Of a stretch of 64,000 nucleotides of DNA, positions 429 to 21,996 are shown piece after piece. A program made the translations under genes and the position numbers. The stretch is from Hymenobacter sp. 15J16-1T3B (GTDB lineage Bacteria > Bacteroidota > Bacteroidia > Cytophagales > Hymenobacteraceae), in contig NZ_JAJFAV010000014.1 of NCBI RefSeq assembly GCF_020711235.1, positions 62,001 to 126,000 on the forward strand. The letters run 5' to 3'. The notes beneath the pieces are model-generated. The model was not told the origin of the DNA, searched no databases, and saw only the letters and a program-made list of their open reading frames with translations. Position 1 is the stretch's first letter; every line of letters starts with the position of its first letter.

Positions 429-460
429 CAAAGAACCCCGCCGCACCAAGGGGCCGAAAG
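429..460 (-). promoter_or_regulatory. Bipartite late element, copy a
   Basis: On the minus strand CTTTCGG begins at 460 and TTTG begins at 432, an offset of 28 nt. The start codon of the downstream gene (410) lies 18 nt beyond the TTTG. The first box sits in the loop of the terminator hairpin. Confidence 0.55.
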
Positions 461-479
461 CGGCACCGGTGCGGCGGGG
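431..479 (-). terminator. Rho-independent terminator after the 193-aa gene
   Basis: Minus-strand arms CCCCGCCGCACC (479-468) and GGTGCGGCGGGG (447-436) pair perfectly around a 20-nt loop. They are followed by TTCTTTG. The hairpin lies 20 nt past the stop at 499. Confidence 0.65.
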
Positions 480-498
480 TTGCTACAGGGCGAAGCGC

Positions 499-1080
499 TT
501 AGTCTTCGTCGGGGCCCAAGGGGAAGACGTTGGCGCCCTGCTTGGGCTCGAACTGGCTGCGGAAGCGGATCTGCCCCGTCAGCGTGCGGGCGTCGTCCCG
601 GCCGGTCGGAATGACCGAGTTGAGCTTCAGGCGGCCGTTGATGCCGTTCTGCCCGCCGCGCATGTACTTGCCGTCGAGCGTGACCGGCCACCAGTGCCCG
701 CTGTAGCCGCCGCCGGCCTGGGTGAGGCGGGCGAATTCGACGTTGGTGGAGTTGGTTTCCAGAATGGTCACGTCGATGGTGCGGTCGGCGGGGCCGGCGC
801 TGATCGTGTCGTTGCCGTACTGCAGCTCCGGGGCGTCGACGGCGGGCATGCCGCCCTCCGAGAGCTTGAAGACGATCATTTTCGTGTCGTCGTTGGCCGC
901 CAAGCGGGTGGTGACCTCCGTCAGGGAAGGCGCCGCCGCGAAGGGCTGTTTGGAGAATACGACCCAGCCGAAGCCGCCGCGGCCGATGTCGGCCGACGAG
1001 GCGCAGTCGGCGAAGAGGACCGTGGGCGCCGGAAACGACGCGCAATCGGCGGGAATTGTCGGGTTGTCTACCGATGCCAT
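499..1080 (-). CDS. Putative tail protein (193 aa)
   Basis: This is a 193-aa protein with ATG start, 12 nt after the stop of the DUF5977-type gene. It has no signal peptide or membrane segment. It is rich in beta-forming stretches and short polar loops with few lysines, and resembles a virion surface or tail-tube-like subunit more than an enzyme. A terminator follows it, so it ends a tail-gene transcript. The family is not recognised; the structural role is inferred from position downstream of the tape measure. Confidence 0.65.
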   Translation of the reverse strand: MASVDNPTIPADCASFPAPTVLFADCASSADIGRGGFGWVVFSKQPFAAAPSLTEVTTRLAANDDTKMIVFKLSEGGMPAVDAPELQYGNDTISAGPADRTIDVTILETNSTNVEFARLTQAGGGYSGHWWPVTLDGKYMRGGQNGINGRLKLNSVIPTGRDDARTLTGQIRFRSQFEPKQGANVFPLGPDED

Positions 1081-1092
1081 GAGAAAAAGGGG

Positions 1093-1614
1093 TTAGGGGT
1101 TGATGACTGCAGAGCAGGAACCGCACGGCACGGTGCCGGTGGTGTTGTAGGCCACGAAGTAGTTGGTGGCTTCGTCCTCCGTGGCGGCGCGCACGTCGCT
1201 GGGGTCGTTGGTGTTGTACATCAGGCAGCGGAAACAGCCTTCGCTGGATCCGCTGGTGTAGTAGAGCGGGGCCCACTGGTCGGCCTGTTGGGTGTCGCAG
1301 ACGCCGTTGGCGTTGGCGTAGGCTTGCTTGGTGGCGTCGAAGTAGGCCTGCGCTTGCTGGTCCGCGTCCGCCTGGCTGATGGCGCTGGTTTTGTAGCCGT
1401 CCGGCAAGGTGTAGGTCACCGCCGAACCAAACTGCCCGCTGGGGCAGTCGTTGCGCGTCACCGACTCGCTGATGCGCGCGGAGCGGAACACCGTGGGCAA
1501 GGGGCAGGCCGTCAGGTCGGTGTACCCGGCATCCACCCACCGCACGGTGCCGTAGGTGGGGCTGTTGGGGTTCATGTCCCGCTGTTGTTTCTCGACGCGG
1601 CCGGTGTTTGCCAT
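1093..1614 (-). CDS. DUF5977-type tail protein
   Basis: The 173-aa protein carries the DUF5977 signature: aromatic-rich SVTRNDCPSGQFGS (about residues 50-63), then a VTYTLPDGY stretch, ISQADADQQAQ, and the terminal YANANGVC (about 96-103). This family is common in Bacteroidota phages and large secreted proteins; its function is unknown. The N-terminus has a YGTVRWVDAGYT motif matching the W-x-D-x-G-x-T repeats at the C-terminus of the upstream 336-aa protein. It lies 9 nt downstream of that gene. Confidence 0.75.
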   Translation of the reverse strand: MANTGRVEKQQRDMNPNSPTYGTVRWVDAGYTDLTACPLPTVFRSARISESVTRNDCPSGQFGSAVTYTLPDGYKTSAISQADADQQAQAYFDATKQAYANANGVCDTQQADQWAPLYYTSGSSEGCFRCLMYNTNDPSDVRAATEDEATNYFVAYNTTGTVPCGSCSAVINP

Positions 1615-1623
1615 GTAAGTAGA

Positions 1624-2634
1624 TTATTCTTCGGAGCCCCCGGAGAAGGAATCCTGCGCGCAGCGGGTGCGGCCGGTGTCCTGCCAAGTGGCCGTGGTGT
1701 CTTGCTCGCAGCGGGTCAGGCCGGTGTCTTGCCAGTCTTCCGCCGTGTCGCTGGTGTCGCCGCAGCGCCACCCCCGCACCGCGTAGCCGTCTTCCGGCAC
1801 CGGCACGGCCACGAGGGGCGCCGGGGCAGCGCAAGTGCCGGCGGCCGTGGTCACGACTTCCAGCGCCTCCACCGTCACCGTCACCGACGAGCGGCACCGG
1901 TCGGCGGCGTCGTAGCTGAGCGCCACTCGTTCGCCCCGCGTTTCGGGGAAATCGGAGAGCGTCACGTGCGCGTGCGACCGGATGCCGCTCAACGCCTCGC
2001 GCAGCCACGCCGGCAGCGGCGGTGTGGTAAAGGTGGCCGTGGACGCCACGGCCCGAAAGTCCAGCACGTCGCGCCCGAAAGCGTCTTTGCTGGTTTCGCT
2101 GTATTCCTTGGGCTCCCCGTGCCACACGGTGGCCCCGGGCATGTACAAGCGCTGGTGCAAGCCCGTGCCGTAGGGAACCGACCCGAGCGGGGTGTCGTGC
2201 CACCACTCCAGCACGGGCGCGGCCGACAAGTCCTCGTAGACCACGAAGACCGGCGAGACCACTTCGTTGTCCAGCCGCAGGCGTAGTCGACGCCCGCAGG
2301 GCAGGGCCAGGCCGTCGATCAGGTCGCCGTAGTAGAGCAGGTAGTCGGTGTTGCTGGCTGCGTCATAGTACAGCTCCACGGGCAGGTAGAGCGGCGCCCC
2401 CGGGGTAGCCGGGTCGACCACCAAGGCTTGCACCACCGCCTCAGTCTCGGCATCGATGACGTCGGCGCAGTCCAGCCGCCGGGTGGCGCTGTGGGGGCGG
2501 GCCCAGTGAAACGGCAACAGCCCGCCGGCCGGCGCCGCCACGGCGTACGGGCCGCCCCACGGCGCGGCGCAGCCGGGTGCTTCGGCGTCGGGCGGGTAGG
2601 CCACAGGCCCCAGGGGGAAGACGGAGAGGTTCAC
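1624..2634 (-). CDS. Tail protein with C-terminal WQDTG-x-TRC repeats
   Basis: A 336-aa protein. The frame opens with GTG at 2634, directly after the TAA of the upstream gene (2635-2637), which suggests translational coupling. The C-terminus has two near-identical copies of WQDTGLTRC/WQDTGRTRC about 16 residues apart plus a weaker one, each ending in cysteine. The body is beta-rich with no enzyme motif. Repeats of this type recur in tail and appendage proteins of Bacteroidota prophages. A baseplate or receptor-binding accessory role is inferred only from position. Confidence 0.65.
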   Translation of the reverse strand: MNLSVFPLGPVAYPPDAEAPGCAAPWGGPYAVAAPAGGLLPFHWARPHSATRRLDCADVIDAETEAVVQALVVDPATPGAPLYLPVELYYDAASNTDYLLYYGDLIDGLALPCGRRLRLRLDNEVVSPVFVVYEDLSAAPVLEWWHDTPLGSVPYGTGLHQRLYMPGATVWHGEPKEYSETSKDAFGRDVLDFRAVASTATFTTPPLPAWLREALSGIRSHAHVTLSDFPETRGERVALSYDAADRCRSSVTVTVEALEVVTTAAGTCAAPAPLVAVPVPEDGYAVRGWRCGDTSDTAEDWQDTGLTRCEQDTTATWQDTGRTRCAQDSFSGGSEE

Positions 2635-4680
2635 TTAGGCGAATTGATCTTGGTTGAACTGGCCGGTGTGGAATTGCTTGGGCGTGCCGGGCAGGCCGGT
2701 CGCAGGACCCAGTCCGGTTAAGGGGGGCAGCAGCGGGGTGACCTCCACTTGCCCGCTGGCCATGTTCCAGCGCGCTTGTTGCAGGGTGGCCACGCGGCTC
2801 AGGCTTGTGTGCACGGTCACGCCGTAGGGCAAGGCCGACAGGTCGCAGAGCGGCGCCACGAACGCGGCCTGCTTGCGTTGCGGGCGCAGGCCGGCGAAAA
2901 CCACCGGTTCGCCGTTTACCGTGGCGGTGAGCTTCACCCGCCCGAAGCGGTGGTAACGCCGCACCAGCTGCGCCGCGGAGACCGGCCGGTTGCCTTGGCG
3001 CAGCAAGCCGCCGGGCCCCGGGGCCAAGACGACCAGCGCGTCATCGGGCAAGGCGTCGCCGCTGAGCACCATCCCGGCCACGTCCCCCGTCAGCTTGGTG
3101 ACGGTGCGGGTGCTGGTGTTTTCGTCTTCGCGGGTGTTGGTTTCGGCGGGCTCGTACTCAATGGCGGCTTCGCGGAAGTTCACCGAGGCGCTTTCCTCGC
3201 TGATGGCGTTGGTGATGCTCAGCACTTCCTTGCGCGGCAACAGGGCCTGCAGGTACTCGTACTCGTTCGGGCCGCCCGCGGCGGGGCCGCCGGTCAGATC
3301 AACGGTGGTGTCCGGATCGGGCGCGAACAAGCTGCGGTGCTCAATGCGAAACTTGCCGTTGCCGTCGATGAACCACCCGCAATCGTACATGGTGCACAAA
3401 TCCTCGACAAACTGCTTCAGGGTCAACTTGAGCTTGCGGGCTGGGTCGGAAACGTTGTAGCGCTTCACGTCCGAGGCAGCAGCTACCAGCAGGCCGGGCA
3501 GCTCGTTGGCCGCTGGGTTGGCACCGGTGGCGTAGCTCGTGGCGGCGCTGAAGTGCTGCGAGAGGTCCGCCGCAAGCGTAGGCGCCAAACGGGGCAGCGT
3601 GCCGCGCAGTACGTGGTTCAAGGCCTCCAGGAGCGGAATACCCCGGGTAAAGCGGAACCGACCAAACCGCCACCACAAGCTTTTGCAGTTGGTGCGGTTC
3701 ACTTGTTCCCGCACGTTGAGGCACGTCGGACACTCGGGCTCGTTGTTGGCACCCTCCTCTCCCCCCAGGTTTACACCGTCTGGCCCGGTAACCTGAACAT
3801 AGTCCGTGCCTGGGCTCGCGGCGCCACAGGGCAGCAGCAGTATTTCGGCGCCGTACTTACGGCTCCAGTCGTTGTAGTGAGTGATTTCGTAGGGTTTGAA
3901 GCCGGCAATCTGCGGAGGCTTCACGTAATGCGCCACCGGGGGCGTAACGGTGCGGTCGTCGCTGTATACCTCCCAGCCTGTAGCTGTCAGGTCGACGGGC
4001 AGATACGTTACCCCGTCGTCATCGAGCACCATTGGGACGTTGCGCTTCACCAAGCGAAACAGCAGCAGCATCCGTTCGCGGACCCCGCCGTGGGTCAGCG
4101 TGCCGGAAATCCACGAACTGCTGCGTAAGAATACCGCCCACCCGTCCGTGCCGGCCACGTCGCCCTCTTGCCCTTTGTCGATACGCCGGAACTCCAACGC
4201 GGTGCCGTCCGTGATGCCACCCGATTCGGCGTTGGTGTAAATACCCAGCTCGCGCAGGTTGGTGCTGCTGCTTACCCGGGCTCCGGTGTAGGCCAGAACG
4301 TTTACCGGCTTCTCCCACGCCTCCAACAGGGCTTGGTAGTCGTCGGCAGGCTTTAGACTCACCTTGCACACGCAATCCGCCACGTTCCACTTCACCTCGT
4401 TGAGAGTGAACTGCCCCACGCGCCGGCTAATCCAAGCTTTGCCATCCCAAGCTTCCGCTTCCAAATACACCGCCCCGCCCCGGTCGCTGCTGCGCTCAAC
4501 GGCGTAGAGATAGGTGAAATCCTGCCCGCGAAACGTAGCCTCGCCTTCCAGTTTGTCGCGGGCGAAGAAGCGCGTCAGGTCCTCTTCCGCGGCCCGCACA
4601 AGGGTATCAACGCCTTCCGGCGTACACGGAAAGCGGGTGCCCAGCAGTACCAGAAACCAGCGGAGAGATGAAACGGCCAC
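2635..4680 (-). CDS. Large tail or baseplate protein (681 aa)
   Basis: A 681-aa protein directly after the tape measure, where siphoviruses encode distal tail or tail-hub proteins. The start is GTG at 4680; an in-frame TGA lies four codons upstream and no nearby ATG follows. The middle part has a Cys cluster (ECPTCLN and NRTNCKS). There are no membrane segments. The GTG lies inside a stem-loop (aacggcc and its complement flanking ggct/agcc, about 4673-4705) and 4 nt after the TTTG of bipartite element copy b, so the mRNA may be leaderless and structured. Tail-hub function is inference. Confidence 0.7.
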   Translation of the reverse strand: MAVSSLRWFLVLLGTRFPCTPEGVDTLVRAAEEDLTRFFARDKLEGEATFRGQDFTYLYAVERSSDRGGAVYLEAEAWDGKAWISRRVGQFTLNEVKWNVADCVCKVSLKPADDYQALLEAWEKPVNVLAYTGARVSSSTNLRELGIYTNAESGGITDGTALEFRRIDKGQEGDVAGTDGWAVFLRSSSWISGTLTHGGVRERMLLLFRLVKRNVPMVLDDDGVTYLPVDLTATGWEVYSDDRTVTPPVAHYVKPPQIAGFKPYEITHYNDWSRKYGAEILLLPCGAASPGTDYVQVTGPDGVNLGGEEGANNEPECPTCLNVREQVNRTNCKSLWWRFGRFRFTRGIPLLEALNHVLRGTLPRLAPTLAADLSQHFSAATSYATGANPAANELPGLLVAAASDVKRYNVSDPARKLKLTLKQFVEDLCTMYDCGWFIDGNGKFRIEHRSLFAPDPDTTVDLTGGPAAGGPNEYEYLQALLPRKEVLSITNAISEESASVNFREAAIEYEPAETNTREDENTSTRTVTKLTGDVAGMVLSGDALPDDALVVLAPGPGGLLRQGNRPVSAAQLVRRYHRFGRVKLTATVNGEPVVFAGLRPQRKQAAFVAPLCDLSALPYGVTVHTSLSRVATLQQARWNMASGQVEVTPLLPPLTGLGPATGLPGTPKQFHTGQFNQDQFA

Positions 4681-4684: not shown

Positions 4685-4716
4685 CAAAGCAAGCCGCGGC
4701 CGTTGGGGGCCGAAAG
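4685..4716 (-). promoter_or_regulatory. Bipartite late element, copy b
   Basis: CTTTCGG begins at 4716 and TTTG at 4688 on the minus strand, offset 28. Only 4 nt separate the TTTG from the GTG start at 4680. The first box touches the tape-measure stop codon (4717-4719). Confidence 0.55.
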
Positions 4717-7700
4717 CTAGGCCGGACGGAAGGTAAGCGGGTAGTTCACCAACTGCTCGCTGCCGTTAGGGAAGCGGTATAACAGCTGGCCCGGGCGCAG
4801 GGCCATGACGTCCGGACGGCCGGCGGTGGTGGCAACGTGCTGTTTGATGGCCGCCAGCTCGGTTTGCATCCCGGCCATTTTCGCTTCCAACGGCCCCCAG
4901 GACTGTTGCTGCTGAAGTACAACGAGTTTCGCAGCTTCTGCTTGCATCTTGCCCGGCACGGAGTAATCGGGCAACAAGGCCCGTAAATGCGGGTGCGTCC
5001 AGTCAATGTCCTCGGGCCGGCCTTTCCACAGCGGCATCAGCAGCGGGTCGCCGTATTTGGCCGTGGGCTCGTGCGGCATGACGAACTCCTTGCCGTGCAC
5101 CACGCCCCGTTCCTCGTGAATGCTGGCGCCACCGGTCGGGCCACCGGTGAAGAACCCGGCCCCGCTGGTGTTCGTCCCGCCGTTGTTGATGGCCTGCAGC
5201 GCTTTCAGCTTGCTGGCCACGAAGGCGCCGATCATGGTGCCGATCAGGCCAATGGCGATGCCGGTACCTAGTCCAGGAATAACGTTCAGGGGCGCTGTTA
5301 CCTCAAAGATGGTCGCGGAGGCACTGGCCAGGCTCGACACCTGCAGCACCGTTTCCAGCAGCAAGCGGGCTTTGGCCGCTTTCTTTTGGTCTTCGATGGC
5401 TTCGGCCCGGGCGGCCTTCTCGACGTTGAGTTTGTCGCGGGTGGCCTGAATGTCGTTGGCAACCCCGGCTTTGGACAAGGCAATTTGCGTCTGCAGTTCG
5501 TTTTGCAGCTCGCTGATGTTGCGCGTGCGCAGCTCTACCCGGGCCTGGGCGTTGGCCAGCTCGGCTTGGTAGAGGTTGTCTAACTGGCCCTTGAACTGCG
5601 AAAAGGCTTGGTCGAGCAGTTGCCGGTTTTCGTCGCTGTCGTTTTCGCCAAGCACCAGCTTGTAGAAGAAGTCCTCGACCTTGTGCCGCTTCTTCTCCGC
5701 GTCGACGGCGTTCAGCCCGTTTTTCACCTGGGCCAGCCGGGCGGCAATGGACGCGCGCTGCAGCTCGGCTTCCTTGCCGGTTAAGAGCAAGGTGTTGTTC
5801 AAGCTCTTTTGCAAGAACTCCTGTTCAATCTTGAGCAGCGCTTCCCGTTCCGCGCGCTTGGCCTCGATGACGCTCACGCCCGTGCCGGCCCCGTAATTCT
5901 CGCCTACGGTGGTGGTCACGATGCTCGTTGCCAAATCCCTCCCCTGGGTGGCATCTTCCGAGGCTTCTTTGAAGCGCTGGGCCAATAAGTCACGTTGTTT
6001 GGCGGCTTCGATGGCCACGAGTAAATCCGCCTGCCCTTGGGCATCCCGGGCCTGCTTCTCGTAGTTGCGCTCGATGGCCTCGCGCTCTTTCTCCCGGCTG
6101 TCGGCTTGCAAGGCAAAGAGTTTGTCGGCGTGCTCCTGGGCCAGCTGCCGCAGCGTGCTGTAATACCGATCCGTTGCTGCCGCTTGGAGTTGAAACAGTT
6201 GCTCTTGCTGCACCCCGTCCACCACGCCATCGGCATTTGCACCCCGGCCGCCGGCTTTGCGCACGGCTTGCTCGCGCTCGATTAGCTTCTGCTTGATGAC
6301 CTCGATTTGTCGGAGGTCGGCTTGAAATTGCTGCTCGGCTCGTACGCGCTGCTCGTCGGTGGCTTTGATCTGGGCTTGCTCCGCCAGGTTCGTAAGCGTG
6401 GCGCGCTCTTGGGCCAGAGCCCGCAGCGCCGCGCCGAGTTTGTCGGCGGTTTGCTTGGTGCGTTTTTCGACTTTGCCGAGCAGCCGGTCCAACTCCTTTT
6501 CGTCGGCGGCAATCTGTGCAACCAACGCTTTGCGCGAAGCTTCGAAGTCGGGACCAGCTTTGAGGTTGTTCAAGTCCTCCTGCTCGTTTTTGATCTTCTC
6601 GCGCAGGGCGGCAATAACGCCGAGGGTAGTTGCCTCTGCCTGTAAGGCGGCTTGGTTCTTTTTAAAGGCGGCTTCGTTGGCCCGATCCTGTTGTTTGAGT
6701 AGTTCTATCTGAGTTTTAATGCCAATGGCTTGCTGTTTGGCTGCCTCAGCACTGCCCCGCCCCACCGTCGCCCCTTCGCGCGCATTGGCGACATAATCGA
6801 ATGCACTGCGGCTTTGGCGCCCCTGGTTGAGCTGTTCAAGCCTGATAGTAGCTTCAGATAGTTGCTTCTGAATATTTACGGATGCCTGACCATAGGCAAA
6901 TGACAGCGCTTGGCTCGCGTCTTTCCCCGATGCTTTTGCTCGCTCTGCCACAAGGGCAAACCGCTTTTCAGCTTCTGTGGCAAACCGGTCCGATTCCTTA
7001 GCCGCTAGGTCTACTGCTTGCTGGTCGGAGCTTTTCAAAGAAGCGGTCAACTGCTCAGTTGCCGAGCGCAGCCCTTTGGTAAATACACTAAACGCAGGGC
7101 CAGCCTTCTCCGACAGTACCCTAAACAGTTCAGTGAATGAGTTGGCCAGCTTCGCGTTTTCGCCGGCCGCTTCTGCTGCCAGTGCTGCTGCCGTCCCCTG
7201 AACGCCCTCCAAGTCCCCAAGGCTGAATAAGTAGCCCGTAATGGCTTCTTTGGTCTTCGCTACTTCGGTAGTAACCCCGCGGTAGGTGAAGGCCACTTTG
7301 TCTCCGCTCTGCTTGGCCGTGATACCAAATTCTGCCAGGCGCTCATTTTGGCCGGCCACGGAATCAACCACGGCTTCGGCAAATTGGTCAATCGTTTTCC
7401 CCGAGGTAGCAGCAATGTCGCTGAGCTGCCTTAGTTGCTCCTTGGTTGGTCGAATACCCCGGTTGACCAGGTTGGCATAGCTTTCCTCCAGCTTGACGGC
7501 GTCGACCCCGGCTTCATTGGCGAAGCTATCCAGTAAACTGATCTGGCTGTTGGCCGCCCCACGGTCCCCGCCAAAGGCTGTGGTCAAGCGGGCCCGAATC
7601 CGGCCGAGGTCTTCGCCGGCTTCCACGATCTTTTCGCGGAACGCATTGATGCGGTCCAGGGCGAAGAAGGCGGCCCCAGCGGCCAAGCCCCGCTGAAAAA

Positions 7701-8277
7701 TACCCACCAAGCCGCTGGCGGACTTGCCCGCGCCCTCCGTGGCCGAGGCCTGGGTTTTCGCGGATTGCGCTTGTGCTTTCGCCGCCGCCGCCGCGTCCTT
7801 GGAAGCAGCAGTGGCGAGCTTCGTCGCGTTGACCTCCTGCCGGCGGGCCTCACGCACCCGTTCAACGGCGGCTCTTTCCTCATCGATGGCCTTGCGAGTC
7901 AGCGCAATTTCGACGCGCACTTGCTCCTGGGCCCGGCGGTTCTTGTCCAGTTCGTTGCGCAGGCGCTGTTGCTCGACAACGTTGGTTGACTCCTTGCGGG
8001 CCTTCTTCAGTTCACGCTCCTGTGCCGTCAGTTCGCCAATGACACCCGACAACTCCCGTAACACGGTTTGCGCCTGGCGCTGCTCGGCTACTTGCTTGGC
8101 CAACGAGTCGGAATAGCGGGTAGCTGCAGCGGCAATGTCGGCATACGACTGCTTGGTCTTGGCCTGGGATTCATCGACGGCCTTTTCAAACAAGCCGAGC
8201 TTGTCTATGCCCGCCTGTAGTCCGTTTAGTAGCTCAGAGGCATCGAATTTGTATTTCTGGGTCAGGTCTTCGGCCAT
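4717..8277 (-). CDS. Phage tail tape measure protein
   Basis: A 1186-aa protein with ATG at 8275-8277. It is almost wholly alpha-helical and coiled-coil, with long runs rich in Ala, Gln, Glu, Lys and Arg. One hydrophobic block (about residues 970-1020, encoded near 5210-5370) is rich in Gly and Ile and of tape-measure type. It is followed by a Gly-rich segment and a conserved-looking HEERGVVHGKEFVMPHEPT stretch. This is the typical layout of siphovirus tape measures, which set tail length; at roughly 1.5 angstrom per residue the tail would be near 180 nm (inference). It follows the tail-assembly chaperone, from which it is separated by two inverted cargo genes. Confidence 0.92.
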   Translation of the reverse strand: MAEDLTQKYKFDASELLNGLQAGIDKLGLFEKAVDESQAKTKQSYADIAAAATRYSDSLAKQVAEQRQAQTVLRELSGVIGELTAQERELKKARKESTNVVEQQRLRNELDKNRRAQEQVRVEIALTRKAIDEERAAVERVREARRQEVNATKLATAASKDAAAAAKAQAQSAKTQASATEGAGKSASGLVGIFQRGLAAGAAFFALDRINAFREKIVEAGEDLGRIRARLTTAFGGDRGAANSQISLLDSFANEAGVDAVKLEESYANLVNRGIRPTKEQLRQLSDIAATSGKTIDQFAEAVVDSVAGQNERLAEFGITAKQSGDKVAFTYRGVTTEVAKTKEAITGYLFSLGDLEGVQGTAAALAAEAAGENAKLANSFTELFRVLSEKAGPAFSVFTKGLRSATEQLTASLKSSDQQAVDLAAKESDRFATEAEKRFALVAERAKASGKDASQALSFAYGQASVNIQKQLSEATIRLEQLNQGRQSRSAFDYVANAREGATVGRGSAEAAKQQAIGIKTQIELLKQQDRANEAAFKKNQAALQAEATTLGVIAALREKIKNEQEDLNNLKAGPDFEASRKALVAQIAADEKELDRLLGKVEKRTKQTADKLGAALRALAQERATLTNLAEQAQIKATDEQRVRAEQQFQADLRQIEVIKQKLIEREQAVRKAGGRGANADGVVDGVQQEQLFQLQAAATDRYYSTLRQLAQEHADKLFALQADSREKEREAIERNYEKQARDAQGQADLLVAIEAAKQRDLLAQRFKEASEDATQGRDLATSIVTTTVGENYGAGTGVSVIEAKRAEREALLKIEQEFLQKSLNNTLLLTGKEAELQRASIAARLAQVKNGLNAVDAEKKRHKVEDFFYKLVLGENDSDENRQLLDQAFSQFKGQLDNLYQAELANAQARVELRTRNISELQNELQTQIALSKAGVANDIQATRDKLNVEKAARAEAIEDQKKAAKARLLLETVLQVSSLASASATIFEVTAPLNVIPGLGTGIAIGLIGTMIGAFVASKLKALQAINNGGTNTSGAGFFTGGPTGGASIHEERGVVHGKEFVMPHEPTAKYGDPLLMPLWKGRPEDIDWTHPHLRALLPDYSVPGKMQAEAAKLVVLQQQQSWGPLEAKMAGMQTELAAIKQHVATTAGRPDVMALRPGQLLYRFPNGSEQLVNYPLTFRPA

Positions 8278-8281: not shown

Positions 8282-8313
8282 CGAAGGTCTATTGGGGAGC
8301 TTGGGGCCGAAAG
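8282..8313 (-). promoter_or_regulatory. Bipartite late element, copy c
   Basis: CTTTCGG begins at 8313; at offset 28 (8285) the second box reads TTCG rather than TTTG. As in copy b, exactly 4 nt separate it from the downstream start codon (tape measure, 8277). Confidence 0.5.
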
Positions 8314-8783: not shown

Positions 8784-9581
8784 ATGACCTTTATAGCGCG
8801 CACTCCTCCAGAAGCAATGCTTACGGTTACGATAAATAATACTACCCCGATAGAGCTACTGGATCTGAGTGACTCATTGCAAAGCCTTGGGCGGCAGTAT
8901 GTGCGTTATCTAACAAAGCACAATATAAGGGTCCCCGATGAGGCCCGCCTGTATGTCCAGGAAATTCGCAAGGGCAGCGTTGTTGTTGAGCTTAGTGACT
9001 TGATGCTGCCAGCGGCAGTCTTATTTTCCAACCCCGAGCACTTTAACAATCTTGTAGATTTTTCGAAGAACCTGAGGGATATTTATCGGTATTTCACTGG
9101 CTTAGGCCCAAAGCCAAAGGAAGATCTGAAAGAGGCTGATTTGCGCAATTACAGCAATGTATTGCAGCCAGTCGCCAAGGATGCAGGGGCCAATATTGAT
9201 TTCAGCGGGACTTTCCAGAATTCGCCCATCGTTGTCTTTAACCTCAATTCAATGGAGGCCAACGCTGCCCAAAACGGTATTGAGAGGGAAATTCAGCGGC
9301 TTCGAACGGTTGAGGTTGGCGGCTACCATCAAAAGGTGGTGTTCTATTGGCACACACTCAAGAATGAACAAAACAATGCTGCAGGGGACCGCGGCATTAT
9401 TGAGTCATTGAGCCCAAGCCCTGTAAAAGTTGTATTTGCTCAAGAAGGGTTAAAGCAGACTATCGCTTTTATGGCCAATAAAAACCCAATGCTTGCTGGC
9501 TTTGTAGTTGACGTACACGTAGAGACGGTGCAGGGCAAGCCTGTTCTTTACAATATCGTCGCTTTCCACGACGTCGTATAG
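8784..9581 (+). CDS. Unknown 265-aa cytoplasmic protein, prophage cargo gene
   Basis: Plus-strand gene between the tail-assembly chaperone and the tape measure, convergent with the chaperone (stop codons 1 nt apart). The first ATG gives 265 aa; an in-frame ATG at 8817 (MLTVTINNTTPIELLDLSD) is an equally good start and gives 254 aa. There is no signal peptide or membrane segment. The protein is mixed alpha/beta with a beta-rich N-terminus (YVQEIRKGSVVVELSDL) and a second beta region near FQNSPIVVFNLNS. GC is lower than in the neighbours. I do not recognise the family with certainty. As a lone inverted gene in a late block it may be expressed in the lysogen; exclusion or defence is possible but unproven. 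Confidence 0.7.
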   Translation: MTFIARTPPEAMLTVTINNTTPIELLDLSDSLQSLGRQYVRYLTKHNIRVPDEARLYVQEIRKGSVVVELSDLMLPAAVLFSNPEHFNNLVDFSKNLRDIYRYFTGLGPKPKEDLKEADLRNYSNVLQPVAKDAGANIDFSGTFQNSPIVVFNLNSMEANAAQNGIEREIQRLRTVEVGGYHQKVVFYWHTLKNEQNNAAGDRGIIESLSPSPVKVVFAQEGLKQTIAFMANKNPMLAGFVVDVHVETVQGKPVLYNIVAFHDVV

Positions 9582-11997: not shown

Positions 11998-12987
11998 CTA
12001 GTAGCTTTTGGCGGTGAACGGGCCGGTGTTCACGCAGACCGTGCACGGGTACGCCACCCGCCGCACCCCTTGGGCCGTGGTGAGGTAGTCCAGGTACTCG
12101 CGCAGCTTGCCGTCGTAGCGGTCGGCCAACACCTGCAGGGCGTCGGGCTCCAGTCCGGTTAGCCGGCCCGCGGCGCCGTCCGCCACTTCCCGGCCGATCA
12201 GGTCCGCCGCCGTGGCGTAGAGCACCGCGTAGCCAATCTGCAGTTGCAGGTCGGCATCAACGGGCGTGGTGGAGCCCGGCTTGTTCCCCGCTACGTAGCA
12301 CAGCTGCTCGGGCGCGGTGCACACCGCCTCGCCGGTCAGGGCAATGCCCCCGGCCGCTTCTTTCATGTTGCGCAGGTAGCCCGAGAGCCGGCGGCCGGCC
12401 TCGCTACAGCCCCCGCAGAGGATCTTGTTTAGCCGCGGCCGGAAGCCGCTGGGCAACATGGCTTCGATGACGTGGTCCAACCCGTCGCAGGGCACCACCA
12501 CATTAGCCAACGACACCGCCCCGCCCCCGGGAACGGCCAGCGCCACCGCCTGCCCGTCTACCGTGACCGATACGGGCTCCGTGGCGACTTCTGCGGTGAG
12601 CAGCTGCAGTGTGTTCAGCTTCAACCCCGCAAAGGGAATGTGGTGCGTTTTCAGCACCATTCGCAGGCTGCCAGCTTCGGGGCCGGTGCCGCTGAAGTCC
12701 GCCCCGCTGATGGGGCCGAACCAGGTGTGCCGCGGGGCCGTGCCCTCGCTCAGGCCCATTGCGAGCTTGGACCGCACTTGCCGCACGCCTTCCTCCCGGG
12801 CTTGTTGAAACCGCTCGTGCCACACCGCCCCATCGGAGCGGCACACGCTCAGGCCCGGCACTTGGGAGAGATACAAGCCCGTGGCGGAGTCGGTGATGAA
12901 GGCCGTACTGCCCACGGCCGGAAACGGGAGGCAGTCGGAAGCGGCGGGCGCAAGGCCAATGAGGGACGTGAGGCAGTCGGTCGGCAT
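11998..12987 (-). CDS. Cysteine-rich late protein (329 aa)
   Basis: An ATG at 12987 was chosen because a bipartite element lies 17 nt upstream of it and the frame above is inside that element; this gives 329 aa. The protein has about eleven cysteines, including pairs CGGC and CTVC near the C-terminus and single ones near residues 5 and 19. There is no signal peptide. Cytoplasmically assembled virion proteins rarely have so many cysteines, so metal binding or late disulfides are possible. It sits immediately downstream of the capsid gene, where head-decoration or connector proteins are encoded. Confidence 0.65.
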   Translation of the reverse strand: MPTDCLTSLIGLAPAASDCLPFPAVGSTAFITDSATGLYLSQVPGLSVCRSDGAVWHERFQQAREEGVRQVRSKLAMGLSEGTAPRHTWFGPISGADFSGTGPEAGSLRMVLKTHHIPFAGLKLNTLQLLTAEVATEPVSVTVDGQAVALAVPGGGAVSLANVVVPCDGLDHVIEAMLPSGFRPRLNKILCGGCSEAGRRLSGYLRNMKEAAGGIALTGEAVCTAPEQLCYVAGNKPGSTTPVDADLQLQIGYAVLYATAADLIGREVADGAAGRLTGLEPDALQVLADRYDGKLREYLDYLTTAQGVRRVAYPCTVCVNTGPFTAKSY

Positions 12988-13004: not shown

Positions 13005-13036
13005 CAAAGGACGCTCCCGCGCATAGCGGCCGAAAG
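13005..13036 (-). promoter_or_regulatory. Bipartite late element, copy d
   Basis: CTTTCGG begins at 13036, TTTG at 13008, offset 28. It immediately follows the terminator of the capsid transcript and precedes the ATG at 12987 by 17 nt. Confidence 0.55.
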
Positions 13037-13066
13037 AGAAAGGCCCGAAGCATTGCCCCGGGCCTT
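13037..13066 (-). terminator. Terminator after major capsid gene
   Basis: Minus strand: AAGGCCCG (13066-13059), loop GGGCAATGCTT, CGGGCCTT (13047-13040), then TCTCTTT. It lies 24 nt past the capsid stop, with bipartite element copy d directly behind it. Confidence 0.65.
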
Positions 13067-13090: not shown

Positions 13091-14128
13091 CTAGGCGGCC
13101 TTGTTCAGCAGCAGGATGCCCGGGCGGGTGGCGTCCACGCCGGCGGCCTTGTGGATACCGATGTGGGCCTTCAGCTTGCCGGTGTGCACCGTTACGGGGT
13201 GGTTGTTCACCATCACGCAGGTTTCCTCGAACACCACGTCGTAGATCATGTCCGTGATGTTGTTCGAGCGGAAGTTGGTCCAGATCTGGCCCTTGGCCGT
13301 TTCGCGCGGGGCGTTCGGCAGGAAGGACTTGTAGAACAGGCCCACGGCGCCGGTCTTGATCAGGAAGGTGTCCTCGGTGATGCCCGAGTCCAGGAAGCCT
13401 TCCAGGTCGAAGTACTCGCGGAAGAAGCGGGCGCGGGCGGCGTCGCCGGCCCCTTCGCCGTTGGCGCCGTCGAGTTGGGCGTTGAAGAAGTCCACGAACA
13501 GGCTGCCGCCGTCGACCATGTAGGGCGAGCCCATCTGGTTCAGGCGAGCCATCTTCATCAGCTCGCCCACAATCTTGCGGTTGTAGGAAGCGGAAGGCAC
13601 GTCGATGACGCCGGCCGTTACCGTGCCCACGCCAGCGGCGGAACCGGTGCGCGGCGCGTCGTGCAGGGCCTTCAGGCGGATAATCGTCTGCGCGTTTACC
13701 CAGGTGTCCAGCTTGGCGGCTTTCACGGCCAGCAAGCGGGCCAGCTCTACTTGCGCGGCGCGTTGGATGGCTTCGGGGCTCCCGCCACCGGCGCCCAAAC
13801 GGCGCAGGGTTTCTTCGCTCACCTGCAGGGTGATTTCCTTGCAGAGCGGGGCGTCGATGTCGACGGTGTCGCCGTCGCCCTCCGAGCCGGACAGCGCGCA
13901 GTCGTCCGAGCAGTCCTGCACGTCGCCGGTGTCGATACCCCACTGCACGGTGAGTTTGTCGATGGGCGACGCCTGCAACCGGGCTTGAATGTCGCCGGTG
14001 CGCTGGTTGGCCTGTACCGCGTTGGCGGTGATGACGTGGGCCGGGTCCGTCAGCAGCGCCTCCGGGTCGGTGTAGAGGGTGCGGGCGTTGGCCTTCACCT
14101 CGGTGATGTAGAGTTCAGAGAGAGCCAT
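13091..14128 (-). CDS. Major capsid protein
   Basis: 345 aa, ATG at 14128. It directly follows the scaffold gene and is followed by a terminator, as expected for a highly expressed capsid gene. The N-terminus (SELYITEVKANARTLYTDPE) is of the type seen in capsid proteins of Bacteroidota phages. The sequence holds a helical spine region (RRAAQ-type helix, SPEAIQRAAQVELARLLAVK) and a FDLEGFLDSGITEDTFLIK segment like capsid P-domains. There is no separate protease gene between scaffold and capsid. Assignment is from order, size and composition. Confidence 0.8.
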   Translation of the reverse strand: MALSELYITEVKANARTLYTDPEALLTDPAHVITANAVQANQRTGDIQARLQASPIDKLTVQWGIDTGDVQDCSDDCALSGSEGDGDTVDIDAPLCKEITLQVSEETLRRLGAGGGSPEAIQRAAQVELARLLAVKAAKLDTWVNAQTIIRLKALHDAPRTGSAAGVGTVTAGVIDVPSASYNRKIVGELMKMARLNQMGSPYMVDGGSLFVDFFNAQLDGANGEGAGDAARARFFREYFDLEGFLDSGITEDTFLIKTGAVGLFYKSFLPNAPRETAKGQIWTNFRSNNITDMIYDVVFEETCVMVNNHPVTVHTGKLKAHIGIHKAAGVDATRPGILLLNKAA

Positions 14129-15350: not shown

Positions 15351-15719
15351 TTAGTCCTTCAGCGGTTGGGGTTTGTCGGTGGCTTTATTCCAGCCCTTCA
15401 TGCCCTGGGTGCCGGCCACCTTCACGGTCTCGTCGGTGAAGTAGCGTTCCACGCCCTCGCCGTTCACGTAGAGCGTGCCGGGGGCTTTGGCCGGCCCTTC
15501 CGTCGATAGCACCACGCCTTGCGAACGGCTGGCCAGTTCGGCTTTGGTGGCTTCGTGGGCCTGTTGCTCGGCGGCCAACGCTTCCTGCGCCCGGCTCAGG
15601 TCCTCTTGGGACTTGCCATAGGCTTCGACGTGTTGGTCGGACCGCTCGCGTTCGGCGGCCAGCTCCTTTTCCAGCTCTGCCACCTTGGCTTCGAGCTTTT
15701 CTTCTTTGGTTTGTGCCAT
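15351..15719 (-). CDS. Coiled-coil head-region protein (122 aa)
   Basis: 122 aa, ATG at 15717-15719. Residues 5-70 are an uninterrupted Glu/Ala/Lys coiled coil (LEAKVAELEKELAAERERSD); the rest is a small globular segment. First gene after bipartite element copy i, so it heads the scaffold-capsid transcript. Possibly an accessory scaffold. Confidence 0.6.
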   Translation of the reverse strand: MAQTKEEKLEAKVAELEKELAAERERSDQHVEAYGKSQEDLSRAQEALAAEQQAHEATKAELASRSQGVVLSTEGPAKAPGTLYVNGEGVERYFTDETVKVAGTQGMKGWNKATDKPQPLKD

Positions 15720-15751: not shown

Positions 15752-15783
15752 CAAAGGACCACGCGCCACCGACCACCCGAAAG
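15752..15783 (-). promoter_or_regulatory. Bipartite late element, copy i
   Basis: CTTTCGG begins at 15783, TTTG (in TCCTTTG) at 15755, offset 28. This copy lacks the CCC that follows the first box elsewhere, which isolates CTTTCGG and TTTG as the shared parts. It is 32 nt upstream of the ATG at 15719. Confidence 0.55.
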
Positions 15784-17178: not shown

Positions 17179-19224
17179 TTACATGGCCATTGCTGGCGTT
17201 TTAGCTGATTTGGTGGCCGGGCTCATGCCCATCAACTCGTCGGCAGTGTACCACTTGTGAATACGGCCATCGGGTAACTTGACCGCGTAGGTATTGCCCT
17301 GAACCTGGGCGACGGTCATCGTCAGCCCTTCGTGTTCGGGCATGTGGGCCATGCCTGGTTTGACCATGACGGATTCCCCCACAGAAAACGCACTCGCCGT
17401 GCCCCGCGTCAGGCTACGGGTGGCGAAGATGGAGCCGGTAGCCCCGGCGTTCAGCTCGTTTACCTTCTCGTCGGCCTTGGCCAGCACCAGCGGGCTTTGC
17501 TGGCTTACCGGCAGGTCGTAGAAGGCGCTGCCGTGCTCGACTTCCAGTTCCGAGAAAATGGAGTCGGCGTGCGTGTGCAGCACCCGGTCGCGTACGGTCA
17601 TGTAGCCGGCGCCCGCGTAGGCGGCAAACTGCGTTTCGCTCAGGCCGATGAAGGTGATGTACTTGCTCTTGACCTTGTAGCGCTTCAGGGCTTCGGGGTC
17701 ATCCGCATACAGCAGCTCGGCCAGCTGGTGTTGAATCTGCTCGATGACGAACGGGGCCGCCTGGGCTTTCACGGCGGCGGCCATTTCTTCGTACAGGTCG
17801 GCTTTGGTCTTAATCACCAAATCCGCCGGGTAGCGAAACTCCACGTCGAGCCCCTGGGCGACGTCAGCGTACGCAGCTGCTACGGAGACGATGTGCCGAT
17901 ACAGCCGGGCGTTGTTCTCGGCAAAGGGCGCCAGGGCCGTGTTCATCTGCTCCCGCTCGGCCATGCGCTCGGTAGCGGTCTGGGTGACGCCCGTACGGCG
18001 CAGCACATCGGAAGTAAAGATGGCGTGCAGGCTCTGGGCCTTGAGGTCGGCGATGTACTCCGTCTGCAGCTTGGGGATGTCCACCGGCGGCGTGTTGAAG
18101 GCCACCAGCTTGGACAAATCCATCATGTCGGCCCGCTCCGGCCGGGGCGGGAGGGGCAGCGAGAGCACGTCGGCGGCGCTGGTCTGAATGTCGAGGTACT
18201 TGCCCTGGCAGACGCCGCACACGTCCCCCTCGGCGTTGCGGCCGTGGTTACACCCGCCCCGTTGCGGGTCGCCTTGGCAGACGTTCACGTACTGCGCCTT
18301 GTGCGGGTGCGCTACTTGGGCGAAGGTAATGTCGGCCTCGGAGCCGATCTTCAGCGACTTGCGCAGCAGCGGCACGGCGGGCTCAAACGGGCTGACGCAG
18401 GTACGGCCGTCCGTGACTTCGTCGGGCTTGTAGCCGATGCGGATGGCGGGCACCCGGCCGGCGTTGTGCTGCAGGATGCGCAGCTGCCACGTGTTACGGC
18501 CGCCGTCATCCGTCAGCGTGCCGACTACCTGGCTGCCCTCGGGCATGGTAAGAATGTTGACGTTATCCGCCCCGCGCAGCACCGGCCAGTAATCGAGGGC
18601 TACGTTGTCGAGGTACACCGTGTAGCGAAAGCCCTGCAGGTTCCCGCGCGAAACGGGCACGCGCACCGTGAGCATGACGCACCCGCCCGCTTCGAACTGG
18701 AAGTCTACCGCGTGCTCGCACGGCACAACGACCGGGTACGGCCGGGGCCGCTCGCGGCGGAAGTCAAACGGCTTGAACTCGGTAAGCAGCCACGCGTTCG
18801 GGTCGGTGAAGGCCTTGGTCTGGCACAGCGTCTCGCTCAGGTAGTCTTCCACTTCCCCCAGGGCGTAGAAGCCTTTGAGGGTCTGGGTGAGCACCTGCAG
18901 CCGCCGTTGCGCCTCAGCATCCGACACGCCCTCGTACGCCAGCCGCTTCACCACGCCCGAACCGCGCAGGCGGGCCACTTGGTAGAACGGGGTGCGCATG
19001 GTCGACCACCACGAAGGGGTGACGAACTCGGTGAAGCGCAGGCGCTGCTTAAACTCAGGCTCGGTCTCCCGGCTTTCGTATTGCCGCAACTCATTTTCCA
19101 GCCCTACGCCGGTCGCCAGGCGCCCGTACAGCGTCGCCAGGTCAACGGTACGCTGGTAGTCAGGGTGCGTGAGCCCGCCGATGATCAGCGGTTCGACGCG
19201 GGCGCGGGCTTCGTCAGGAGTCAT
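17179..19224 (-). CDS. Portal protein with a zinc-finger-like insert
   Basis: The start is ATG at 19224 (a TTG at 19251 lies inside the second box of the promoter-like element). 681 aa. Size, helical C-terminal half and position between large terminase and MuF-like gene identify the portal, the dodecameric DNA channel of the head. Around residues 300-330 it carries C-x8-C-x10-C-x2-C with a His (CNHGRN), encoded near 18205-18300, a zinc-knuckle-like insert not normal for portals. The C-terminus has a small beta domain (SVGESVMVKPG, YAVKLPDGRIHKWYTADEL) resembling a KOW/SH3 or DUF2158-like barrel. Confidence 0.8.
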   Translation of the reverse strand: MTPDEARARVEPLIIGGLTHPDYQRTVDLATLYGRLATGVGLENELRQYESRETEPEFKQRLRFTEFVTPSWWSTMRTPFYQVARLRGSGVVKRLAYEGVSDAEAQRRLQVLTQTLKGFYALGEVEDYLSETLCQTKAFTDPNAWLLTEFKPFDFRRERPRPYPVVVPCEHAVDFQFEAGGCVMLTVRVPVSRGNLQGFRYTVYLDNVALDYWPVLRGADNVNILTMPEGSQVVGTLTDDGGRNTWQLRILQHNAGRVPAIRIGYKPDEVTDGRTCVSPFEPAVPLLRKSLKIGSEADITFAQVAHPHKAQYVNVCQGDPQRGGCNHGRNAEGDVCGVCQGKYLDIQTSAADVLSLPLPPRPERADMMDLSKLVAFNTPPVDIPKLQTEYIADLKAQSLHAIFTSDVLRRTGVTQTATERMAEREQMNTALAPFAENNARLYRHIVSVAAAYADVAQGLDVEFRYPADLVIKTKADLYEEMAAAVKAQAAPFVIEQIQHQLAELLYADDPEALKRYKVKSKYITFIGLSETQFAAYAGAGYMTVRDRVLHTHADSIFSELEVEHGSAFYDLPVSQQSPLVLAKADEKVNELNAGATGSIFATRSLTRGTASAFSVGESVMVKPGMAHMPEHEGLTMTVAQVQGNTYAVKLPDGRIHKWYTADELMGMSPATKSAKTPAMAM

Positions 19225-19248: not shown

Positions 19249-19280
19249 CAAAGGTGCCCGAGGGGCAAGGGGGCCGAAAG
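19249..19280 (-). promoter_or_regulatory. Bipartite late element, copy f
   Basis: CTTTCGG begins at 19280, TTTG (ACCTTTG) at 19252, offset 28. 24 nt upstream of the portal ATG. Confidence 0.55.
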
Positions 19281-19454: not shown

Positions 19455-20876
19455 TTACCGCCCAGCCTTGAACGCCTCGTACTGCGCCTGCAGAATGGCC
19501 GTCAGCAGATAGTCTACGTCATCCGAACAGTGCCCCAGGTGCTCGTACGCTACTCCTAATTCCTTGTCCATCGTACGGGCCTTGTGCTTGCCGTCGACGC
19601 CGGTCTGCACTTGCTCCAGATCGACAATGGTCTTGCCCATGCTGGGGTCGAATACCACTTCCACATTGGGCAGTCCGCCGGCAAACACCCAGTTGATGAA
19701 GTCCCGGCGCCGCATCACTTCGGGGTTGCGCCGGTGCCAGCGGTCGGAGGCGTTGTTAAGCGCCGGCAGCAACTCGGCTTCGATGTCGTTGAACAGCGTG
19801 TCGCGTTCGGCCCGGCCGGGTTGGCGGCTGCGCATGGAGGCGTCCCCGGTGATAAACAGGTCGGAGGACTGCCAGCCGTTCACCTTGCGGTCGATCAGGA
19901 ATTGCTTGGCTGTGGGCCGCACGCCGTTGTTGGGCGGGCCCAGGGTGTATTCTTTGAAAAACTGAATGCGCAGCTTCTCGCCTTCGCGGATGGGCTGGCA
20001 ACAGAGCATGGCCGAATAGGGCAACGCGTTGGCGTCCCAGCCGGTGAAGATGGGCCGGCCGAGTACGTACGGGCAGGGCTGGACGTGCTTGCTGCGGCTG
20101 AAGGCATGGTAAAACTCGTTCCCGGTCTGCTTGGTAGCCCAGAGGCCCAGGGCCCACACCCGATGCCGGTAGGGGTCTGTAGCGGCGTAGGATTCGTAGG
20201 TTGCTGCCCGGTCAGGTGGGCACCACGGATTATCCCGGTAAGTGGTATGAATGACACGGTAGGGCTGCTCGATCAGCTGCCCATTCACGTCCACGGCTAG
20301 CTGACCGCTGAAGGAAGTCCCGTTGGGGTTGCCTGTTCGGTCAAAGAACTTCTGCCACAACCAGAACTCGCGGTAGTCGCCCTCGTGGTCTGGGTTGAAG
20401 GTGTACACCTCTTGAATAACGGCGCCCGGGTGTGAGCTGCGCAACGAAGTGCTGACGTAGTTGGCTTCTTCCTCACTGATTTGGTTGGCTTCTTCATACC
20501 AAGCGTGCGTAGGATCGGATACCGATTTGAGGCGTGCTGGGTCATCGAGGCCGCGGCAAATGAAGCTATTGCCGTTAAGCGTGCACTTGATCATCAAGGG
20601 CGCCGCGCGAAACTCGAAGTACGGTAGCAGCCCTTCCCGCTCCGCCACCTTGCGAAGGGTGGCCACTTGGCTTTCTCCGATGGTGTTGAACACCTTGCGG
20701 ATCAGAATGCACTTGAAGTAGGGCAGCGACAGACACGCCAGCAGCAGGTGCAGCGCGGTAAAGTCGGATTTAGTCCCGTCACGCCCTCCCCACAGCAGGA
20801 AGAACCGCACCCGCGTCAGCAGGTGCGGGTAGAACGCCGGGCTGCAGGCCCCCTCCTGTACATCAATGCTCAGCAT
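19455..20876 (-). CDS. terL: Terminase large subunit
   Basis: ATG at 20876 gives 473 aa and overlaps the end of terS by 14 nt. ATPase: GGRDGTKS (Walker A-like, about residues 29-36) and HAWYEEANQIS (Walker B, EE). C-terminal nuclease: FTGWDAN, LFITGDAS and the acidic HCSDDVDYLL near the end supply the metal-binding Asp residues. It belongs to the Terminase_3-like PBSX-type group. It translocates and cuts phage DNA with TerS. Confidence 0.9.
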   Translation of the reverse strand: MLSIDVQEGACSPAFYPHLLTRVRFFLLWGGRDGTKSDFTALHLLLACLSLPYFKCILIRKVFNTIGESQVATLRKVAEREGLLPYFEFRAAPLMIKCTLNGNSFICRGLDDPARLKSVSDPTHAWYEEANQISEEEANYVSTSLRSSHPGAVIQEVYTFNPDHEGDYREFWLWQKFFDRTGNPNGTSFSGQLAVDVNGQLIEQPYRVIHTTYRDNPWCPPDRAATYESYAATDPYRHRVWALGLWATKQTGNEFYHAFSRSKHVQPCPYVLGRPIFTGWDANALPYSAMLCCQPIREGEKLRIQFFKEYTLGPPNNGVRPTAKQFLIDRKVNGWQSSDLFITGDASMRSRQPGRAERDTLFNDIEAELLPALNNASDRWHRRNPEVMRRRDFINWVFAGGLPNVEVVFDPSMGKTIVDLEQVQTGVDGKHKARTMDKELGVAYEHLGHCSDDVDYLLTAILQAQYEAFKAGR

Positions 20877-21336
20877 CTTCCGCCTGCTGGCCCGCCGCCT
20901 TGCCGCCGATGGTGATGTGCACCTCGCCGTTTTTCTGCTTGTTGTGCTTCTCGAACAATCCAACGTGCTTGCCGATCAGCTCCAGGGCCTTATTCGCCCC
21001 GATGGCGTCGAACTCAAAAATACCCTCCCCAGTCACCGGGTCTTTAGCTTGCTGTAGGCCGGCCATTGTCATTACAAGCTTAGGCCCGGGCGTTGCGCAG
21101 CGTTCCGCTACCATCACCAACCGGGTCAGCACCCAGTCAGCGTCTACCTGTACGCGTTCTGCCCGGGCTTGCATCTGCTCGTGCACACGCGCGGCAACCA
21201 TAGCATTTGATAACAGCCGGGAAGCTTGCTCTTGGGCCGATTCCTTGGCATAACCCGCACGGATAGCCGCCTGCGTACCATTGAGGTCCTTCAGGTATTC
21301 CAGGCAGAATAGTTCTTGTTTGGGCGTGAGTGCCAT
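20863..21336 (-). CDS. terS: Terminase small subunit
   Basis: 157 aa, ATG at 21336. N-terminal LTPKQELFCLEYLKDLNGTQ, then IRAGY and ASRLLSNAMVAARV: the helix-turn-helix and Ala-rich helices of the Terminase_2 family. Binds the packaging site and recruits TerL. The C-terminal tail is charged (EKHNKQKNGEVHITIGGKAA). A bipartite element lies 7 nt upstream of its start. Confidence 0.9.
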   Translation of the reverse strand: MALTPKQELFCLEYLKDLNGTQAAIRAGYAKESAQEQASRLLSNAMVAARVHEQMQARAERVQVDADWVLTRLVMVAERCATPGPKLVMTMAGLQQAKDPVTGEGIFEFDAIGANKALELIGKHVGLFEKHNKQKNGEVHITIGGKAAGQQAEDAEH

Positions 21337-21343
21337 ACAATCC

Positions 21344-21375
21344 GAAAGGTCTTAGCGTAGCCGGCGGGCCGAAAG
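21344..21375 (-). promoter_or_regulatory. Bipartite late element, copy g
   Basis: CTTTCGG begins at 21375; at offset 28 (21347) the sequence is ACCTTTC, one base off TTTG. Lies 7 nt before the terS ATG. Confidence 0.5.
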
Positions 21376-21377
21376 GC

Positions 21378-21944
21378 TCAGGGCCACAAGGTCATCTGCC
21401 GGCCGTCGTTGAGTGGGTTGTGCGCGCGGCGCCGGCGGGCGCTGCGCAGCTTGGGTTGGGTGGGCTTCGGCTTCACCGGGGGCAGGCGGAAGAGGTAGCC
21501 CGGGTGGAGCTTGCCGTAGTTCTCGGAGCTGATCTTGCCCAGGCCGGCGGCTTTGGCGTGGCCGTCGTCCTTCGGGGCGGTGTTGGGCTGCTCGCGCTGC
21601 AGCAGGGTGCGTTCCAGCTTCAGCACGGCGAAGACGCAGCCGACGAAATCCCCGGCCAGCAGCAGGGCTTCGATGGCCGGCTGTTCCTCCCACGTCAGCT
21701 TCTCGATCAGTTCGGGCACTTCGTACTGCAGGCGGTCTTCGGCGGCGGCCAGCTGCTTGGCGGTGCGCTTGTCCGGAAAGCACTGCAGCAGCAGGGCGTC
21801 GAGGTCGGCGGCGAACAGCTGGCGTTTGTAGGCCTTCAAGATGCGCTGCTCGCGGGCGTAAGCGCTGGCCGGGGTCGGGGCTTGCTGGGCGTCGGCCAGG
21901 GAGCCGGCGCGGGCGGTGGTGGTTGGGGAAGAGAGGGCTAGCAC
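21378..21944 (-). CDS. Unknown protein upstream of terminase (188 aa)
   Basis: 188 aa, ATG at 21944. Helical centre (YAREQRILKAYKRQLFAADL) and an Arg/Pro-rich basic tail ending NDGRQMTLWP. Not recognised. It lies between the early block and terS and has copy h of the bipartite first box plus a stem-loop upstream, so it may be the first late gene. A late regulator is possible, but I see no helix-turn-helix. Confidence 0.6.
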   Translation of the reverse strand: MLALSSPTTTARAGSLADAQQAPTPASAYAREQRILKAYKRQLFAADLDALLLQCFPDKRTAKQLAAAEDRLQYEVPELIEKLTWEEQPAIEALLLAGDFVGCVFAVLKLERTLLQREQPNTAPKDDGHAKAAGLGKISSENYGKLHPGYLFRLPPVKPKPTQPKLRSARRRRAHNPLNDGRQMTLWP

Positions 21945-21955
21945 GGCTTTGCGGT

Positions 21956-21986
21956 GGCGTTTCGTGGGGCTACACGAAGAAACGCC
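21956..21986 (-). promoter_or_regulatory. Stem-loop in the leader of the 188-aa gene
   Basis: GGCGTTT (minus 21986-21980... paired with 21962-21956) plus CGTG/CACG form an interrupted stem around a 6-nt loop. It occupies the space where other copies carry the second box, 12 nt before the ATG. No T-run follows, so it is not a plain terminator. Confidence 0.45.
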
Positions 21987-21989
21987 GGG

Positions 21990-21996
21990 CCGAAAG
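21990..21996 (-). promoter_or_regulatory. First box of bipartite element, copy h (second box absent)
   Basis: CTTTCGG followed by CCC begins at 21996, 52 nt upstream of the ATG at 21944. At offset 28 the sequence is CCCA, so the second half does not match. Confidence 0.35.

Follow-up and report, generated by a model that had tools for sequence, protein, structure and literature searches.

A gapped element with a host-like -7 half as the probable late promoter of a Hymenobacter prophage

A gapped element precedes the late genes of the prophage

The stretch of DNA analysed here (the window) comprises 64,000 nucleotides of Hymenobacter sp. 15J16-1T3B, positions 62,001 to 126,000 of contig NZ_JAJFAV010000014.1, which is contig 5 (C5) of a 6.33-Mb Hymenobacter-family genome in a genus group shared with H. 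busanensis. Its left part is occupied by a prophage whose late genes are read on the minus strand, and at seven late sites we find a gapped element, CTTTCGG-N21-TTTG or a one-base variant of it, which from its sequence and placement is very probably the late promoter of the prophage. The explanation that we find best overall, with a probability of roughly 60%, is that the -7 half of these late promoters is read by host sigma-A and the upstream box by a phage factor.

On the minus strand, exact copies begin at 460, 4716, 13036, 15783 and 19280 (n=5), and copies with one mismatch at 8313 (TTCG in place of TTTG) and 21375 (TTTC). All of them lie on the late strand, with 36-64 nt between the upstream box (box 1) and the start codon. 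An original prediction, made from the letters of the window, had listed eight CTTTCGG positions at 30-65 nt before late gene starts, with a second box at a fixed offset of 28 nt: TTTG in five copies, TTCG in one, TTTC in one and nothing similar at 21996. All of these positions and the offset are correct, and seven of the eight stand as late-gene elements; the site at 21996 does not qualify as a canonical promoter, although box 1 is conserved there. Minus-strand CTTTCGG also occurs at 2081, in coding sequence, and at 21348, within the 21375 promoter; as had been noted, a coding copy lacks TTTG at the offset (the copy at 2059 has TTTA there).

The sites are as follows.

429..460 (-): predicted late promoter of the tail-end gene (ATG at 410); box 1 at 452-460; -7 box at 429-436, GTTCTTTG; predicted start 424
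4685..4716 (-): predicted late promoter of the 2635-4680 gene; box 1 at 4708-4716; -7 box at 4685-4692, TTGCTTTG; predicted start 4680, the first base of the GTG (leaderless)
8282..8313 (-): predicted late promoter serving the tape-measure gene (4717-8277); -7 box GACCTTCG; transcription predicted to start at 8277, on the A of the ATG (leaderless)
13005..13036 (-): predicted late promoter of the gene with ATG at 12987; -7 box GTCCTTTG
15752..15783 (-): predicted late promoter of the gene at 15351-15719; -7 box GTCCTTTG
19249..19280 (-): predicted late promoter of the portal gene (ATG at 19224); -7 box CACCTTTG
21344..21375 (-): predicted late promoter of the terminase small and large subunit genes (ATG at 21336); -7 box GACCTTTC
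21988..21996 (-): box 1 alone, with no TTTG at the offset; it precedes the GTG of the gene that we call gene B by 52 nt

Taken without its second box, CTTTCGG is mildly enriched (19 copies vs 10.6 expected). The exact gapped element occurs five times in the prophage region against a shuffle mean of 0.01, and in none of 782 host upstream regions; the host figures come from a 1.2-Mb sample together with a genome-wide exact search, which found four copies outside the prophage in the whole 6.33-Mb genome. An unprimed count of every 6-mer at every offset before TTTG ranks CTTTCG at offset 28 first in this prophage and in two related ones. When the three are pooled, a gap of 21 gives 18 matches and each of the other gaps from 5 to 45 at most one, and the reverse strand of the three holds no match to the gapped element. 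Two one-mismatch matches within late genes were left out because they are located in reading frames. The original prediction, which had called for a gapped-motif search of related Hymenobacter prophages with the host as background, is thus borne out in both respects: the element recurs in two relatives, and its frequency is that of neither shuffled sequence nor host promoters. Searches of Rfam gave no match. Pattern searches across the collection of viral contigs returned single, chance-level matches, the H. busanensis phage excepted, and single matches in two other Hymenobacter genomes (G030, G118) were discarded, as they are located before host genes.

Related prophages keep the downstream half and exchange the upstream box

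Relatives were found through related portal proteins, with identities of 46% (H. busanensis), 44% (H. lapidiphilus), 41% (H. lapidarius) and 37% (H. properus). The prophages of H. busanensis and H. lapidiphilus carry the same element with the same 21-nt gap, if the variant CTTTCCG is accepted, so that the three phages have 7, 7 and 6 sites. The orthologous targets are terS, the portal gene, one gene that precedes the scaffold gene and another that follows the probable capsid gene, as well as the 2635-4680 gene and the tail-end gene, the gap orthologous to that of the 460 promoter holding the element in both relatives. The tape-measure gene carries it in H. busanensis, not in H. lapidiphilus. 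The profile of the 20 sites is CTTTC(G/c)GCC-N15-G(T/A)NNTTTG, with a spacer whose sequence is not conserved. The original prediction had taken CTTTCGG and TTTG as the constant parts, and both boxes reach beyond these: box 1 extends to CTTTC(G/C)GCC and the second box is (G/C)(A/T)NNTTTG.

The other two prophages, which are syntenic, use different upstream boxes. H. lapidarius has GTAGGG-N13-TTTG at 5 places, where the top word in 100 shuffles reaches at most 4, and H. properus has GTTTCCGGCCGGGC-N16-TTTG, with three exact boxes followed by TTTG or (once) TTCG at offset 30, plus two variants. These boxes show a downstream half that is constant and an upstream half that is specific to the lineage, which suggests that, while the half probably read by the bacterial polymerase is retained, every phage makes its own late-gene switch. 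In G154, G041, G051 and G199, which hold more distant prophages whose portals are related, no repeated element is seen.

The constancy of the downstream half extends beyond TTTG. At 30 sites, which were picked by box and TTTG and independently of the base at -11, this base is A or T throughout (T 19, A 11), compared with a share of 39% when every TTTG in these phages is counted (P about 5e-13). TTTG itself is present in 27 of the 30, and the remaining three differ by one base. The base at -12 is G or C in 26 sites and T in 3. Since A or T at -11 is invariant, the host -7 box TAnnTTTG appears to be partly kept: the -11 position and TTTG stay, and T-12 is lost. A late promoter with an altered -33 box and a phage factor, as had been proposed, remains the best reading; the loss of the TA that went with the proposal applies to the T at -12, but not to position -11.

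Register and predicted start sites

Sigma-A promoters of Bacteroidota have TTTG near -33 and TAnnTTTG at -7 (PMC7366714, PMC9723704), the latter lying at -12 to -5 in Flavobacterium psychrophilum (PMC9723704). The prophage also holds an internal contrast to its late promoters, in the form of an early promoter of the host type:

35222..35252 (-): predicted early promoter, TTGACA-N17-TAAATTTG, overlapping a probable repressor operator

The offset from TTTG is 27 both for the early TTGACA and for the late TTTCGG. With the F. psychrophilum register, transcription is predicted to start at the fifth base past TTTG. In 12 of 28 sites the distance from TTTG to the start codon is exactly 4 nt, and at such sites transcription should therefore begin at the start codon and give a leaderless mRNA. 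For the 2635-4680 gene, six phages were compared, and TTTG stands 4 nt before the start in five of them and 3 nt before it in the remaining one; the tape-measure orthologue of H. busanensis is likewise preceded by TTTG-N4-ATG. We infer both the start sites and the leaderless late mRNAs from this geometry and from predicted start codons. The published share of leaderless or nearly leaderless mRNAs in Bacteroidota is 3.7-5.5%.

Readings of the element

If the element is a promoter, then host sigma-A at the -7 half together with an activator at box 1 is the arrangement that we consider likely. RNA polymerase with host sigma-A would read SWnnTTTG from -12 to -5, and a phage-encoded factor would read CTTTC(G/C)GCC at -36 to -28, in place of the host -33 box, and would recruit the polymerase to seven or eight late units simultaneously. 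Several of these units would begin at the start codon, and related prophages would retain the sigma half and carry another box for their own factor. A constant host-like half joined to an exchanged upstream half fits an activator that replaces the -33 contact. Some observations speak against this arrangement. T-12 of the host box is absent in 27 of the 30 sites, so that recognition by sigma-A is not assured. A six-frame search with the Sigma70_r2 and Sigma70_r4 models found no match within the prophage (C5:52269-99417), and Pfam gave no MotA-, AsiA- or sigma-like match among the scanned early proteins, where distant analogues are still possible. Finally, the two candidate genes for the factor, genes A and B (see below), occur alike in phages whose boxes differ, and the divergence of the two genes does not follow the box.

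The lost T-12 would be accounted for if a diverged sigma factor encoded by the phage, either like the extracytoplasmic function (ECF) factors or like gp55, read both boxes without host sigma-A, a possibility that we take seriously but hold to be unlikely. The fixed spacing of the boxes would agree with it, as would the 16 nt from CTTTCGG to CGT, which is an ECF-like spacer, and about half of the sites are CGT-S-C-TTTG-like, near the CGT -10 box of Bacteroidota ECF promoters (PMC9723704). The Sigma70 models, however, are unmatched within the prophage, and the constancy of TTTG and of A/T at -11 while the upstream box varies is better explained by a half that the host reads. The nearest matches to sigma70 domains are at 28 kb and 119 kb of C5, both beyond the prophage. 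The sites might instead silence the late genes in the lysogen, as repressor operators or as stoperators like those of mycobacteriophage L5: they are oriented, they stand in gene-free gaps, their boxes vary among phages in the manner of immunity specificities, and box 1 occurs before gene B without TTTG. We nevertheless regard this as very improbable, because the probable cI operators differ in sequence, being a palindrome with three copies ahead of the repressor gene and a fourth inside the early promoter. Moreover, CTTTCGG is absent from the immunity region, and operators would leave the fixed TTTG, the A/T at -11 and the 4-nt start distance unexplained.

36511-36526, 36540-36555, 36582-36597 and about 35230-35247: palindrome near TACCGAANCTTCGGTA, four copies, probable repressor operators
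36620-37324: repressor-like gene

To an RNA element in the 5' untranslated region (a hairpin, or a processing or translation signal) we give hardly any credence. The 460 site and its two counterparts do form very stable hairpins, and start codons often follow closely after TTTG, but at 16 of the 20 sites folding is no stronger than in shuffles (z -0.8 to +1.1), on which ground we reject RNA structure as an account of the sites in general, and the 13036 site folds well purely through an adjacent, separate terminator. The start codon is 4-40 nt away; that the spacing of the boxes is invariant despite this variable distance points to a DNA element. Chance or shared coding sequence can practically be dismissed: beyond the mild enrichment of CTTTCGG by itself, it is contradicted by the shuffles, the gap test, the reverse strand and the host background, and by conservation of the element across diverged prophages whose spacer sequences differ.

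Candidate regulators

Between the replication genes and terS, two genes are the sole conserved ones in the close relatives that were checked:

21378..21944 (-): gene B, 188 aa, directly before terS, conserved in close relatives; candidate late regulator
22025..22447 (-): gene A, 140 aa, lying ahead of gene B and likewise conserved; second candidate regulator

In four prophages (this one and those of H. busanensis, H. lapidiphilus and H. properus), each phage's own box precedes gene B with TTTG absent at the offset, and gene B may thus be under control of the same factor. One of the two genes is our best guess for the factor, which we offer as a lead and not as a result. Pfam, PHROG, Foldseek and VIA-align gave no usable match for gene B (a top VIA-align Z of 5.3 was rejected, as it falls within the range of helical bundles), nor did Pfam and Foldseek for gene A. 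Gene B is predicted to fold into a helical domain and to carry a loose basic tail. Of six close relatives, five have QxxL(F/W) at the C-terminus, an ending that presumably resembles bacterial sliding-clamp peptides; more distant relatives have a basic tail instead, and in other Hymenobacter genomes the C-terminus is very basic (QERKRLKRKRR). The surroundings of the distant gene B relatives contain no repeated TTTG element. We keep the idea of a clamp peptide as a weak lead. It is a long shot that the whole of the following picture holds: a family of temperate Bacteroidota phages, each with a private late code built of a constant host-read half and a half exchanged between lineages, with gene B as the switch, a link to replication through the clamp peptide as in T4, and leaderless tail mRNAs.

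A host gene for an ECF-type sigma factor lies at 57282-57896 (+) of the window, outside the prophage, and corresponds to Sigma70_r2/r4 matches at C5:119324-119836.

Prophage layout and terminators

The likely limits of the prophage are C5:52269-99417, or about -9731 to 37417 in window coordinates, and are placed there because a 17-bp direct repeat adjoins the integrase gene and the repressor gene. This repeat, AATCCCATCCTCTCTGC, at C5:52269 (L009:7269) and at window position 37401, is the probable att core. The late genes run from the terminase small subunit (20863-21336), the terminase large subunit and the portal to the tape measure (4717-8277) and on past the left window edge. A plus-strand frame (8784-9581, 265 aa; no match in Pfam) lies inside this minus-strand region before the tape-measure gene and is possibly a cargo gene. 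Among isolated phages the nearest terminase, that of Pseudanabaena phage Pan5, is just 37% identical, so that no studied phage can be used for comparison.

13040..13066 (-): predicted intrinsic terminator, after the probable capsid gene (13091-14128) and immediately before the 13036 promoter
432..484 (-): strong terminator-like hairpin around box 1 of the 460 promoter; minimum free energy -40.1, z -5.7

A strong terminator in the gap after the probable capsid gene, again immediately ahead of the promoter, is also found in H. busanensis, H. lapidiphilus and H. lapidarius, and the gaps orthologous to that of the 460 promoter in H. busanensis and H. lapidiphilus form hairpins with z of -4.3 and -6.7, their stem sequences being unrelated and their position conserved. 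This makes it likely that the late region consists of several distinct transcription units, with terminators before or across some of the promoters, and as such it would need many promoters. As the hairpin at 460 encloses box 1, termination and initiation there would use one shared stretch of DNA.

Comparison with known systems

If our interpretation is true, the roughly 30 promoters, spread over five prophages and carrying three different boxes, offer a direct route to the switch protein and would provide a phage-inducible promoter for use in Hymenobacter and related bacteria. It would also mean a large leaderless share among late mRNAs in a phylum where the measured share is small, and a layout like that of sigma appropriation beyond the relatives of T4. 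A phage-specific promoter that uses a host half is known from T4; a version in a temperate Bacteroidota phage is new to the literature that we searched, a full-text search for late-gene promoter motifs of phages in Bacteroidetes having found none.

T4 late promoters possess a -10 box alone. They resemble the present case in that a phage factor is proposed here too for late structural genes (gp55/gp33/gp45 in T4; PMC2988020), whereas gene B has no detectable similarity to gp33 or gp55. Bacteroidota ECF promoters (motif SM6 with a CGT -10 box; PMC9723704) share CGT at about -13 to -11 with part of the sites, but the late sites have the additional TTTG and the prophage has no ECF factor by the Sigma70_r2/r4 search. 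The sigma-A promoters of Bacteroidota share with the element TTTG at -8 to -5, A/T at -11 and an upstream box in the same register; they differ in having T-12, here G/C, and the -33 box, here CTTTCSGCC with TTTC in the register of TTG/TTTG.

The middle promoters of T4 carry a MotA box at -35 to -26 instead of the -35 box (PMC2988021) and work by sigma appropriation through MotA and AsiA (PMC2988021, PMC6755090). The prophage differs from this system in its sequences, in belonging to a temperate Bacteroidota phage, in serving late structural rather than middle genes, in lacking a relative of MotA or AsiA that Pfam can find, and in a -7 half without T-12. The likeness, which is one of layout only, is that both systems substitute a phage box for the host -35 box and keep the host -10 half, for the most part in the prophage, and that many such promoters are dispersed over the genome.

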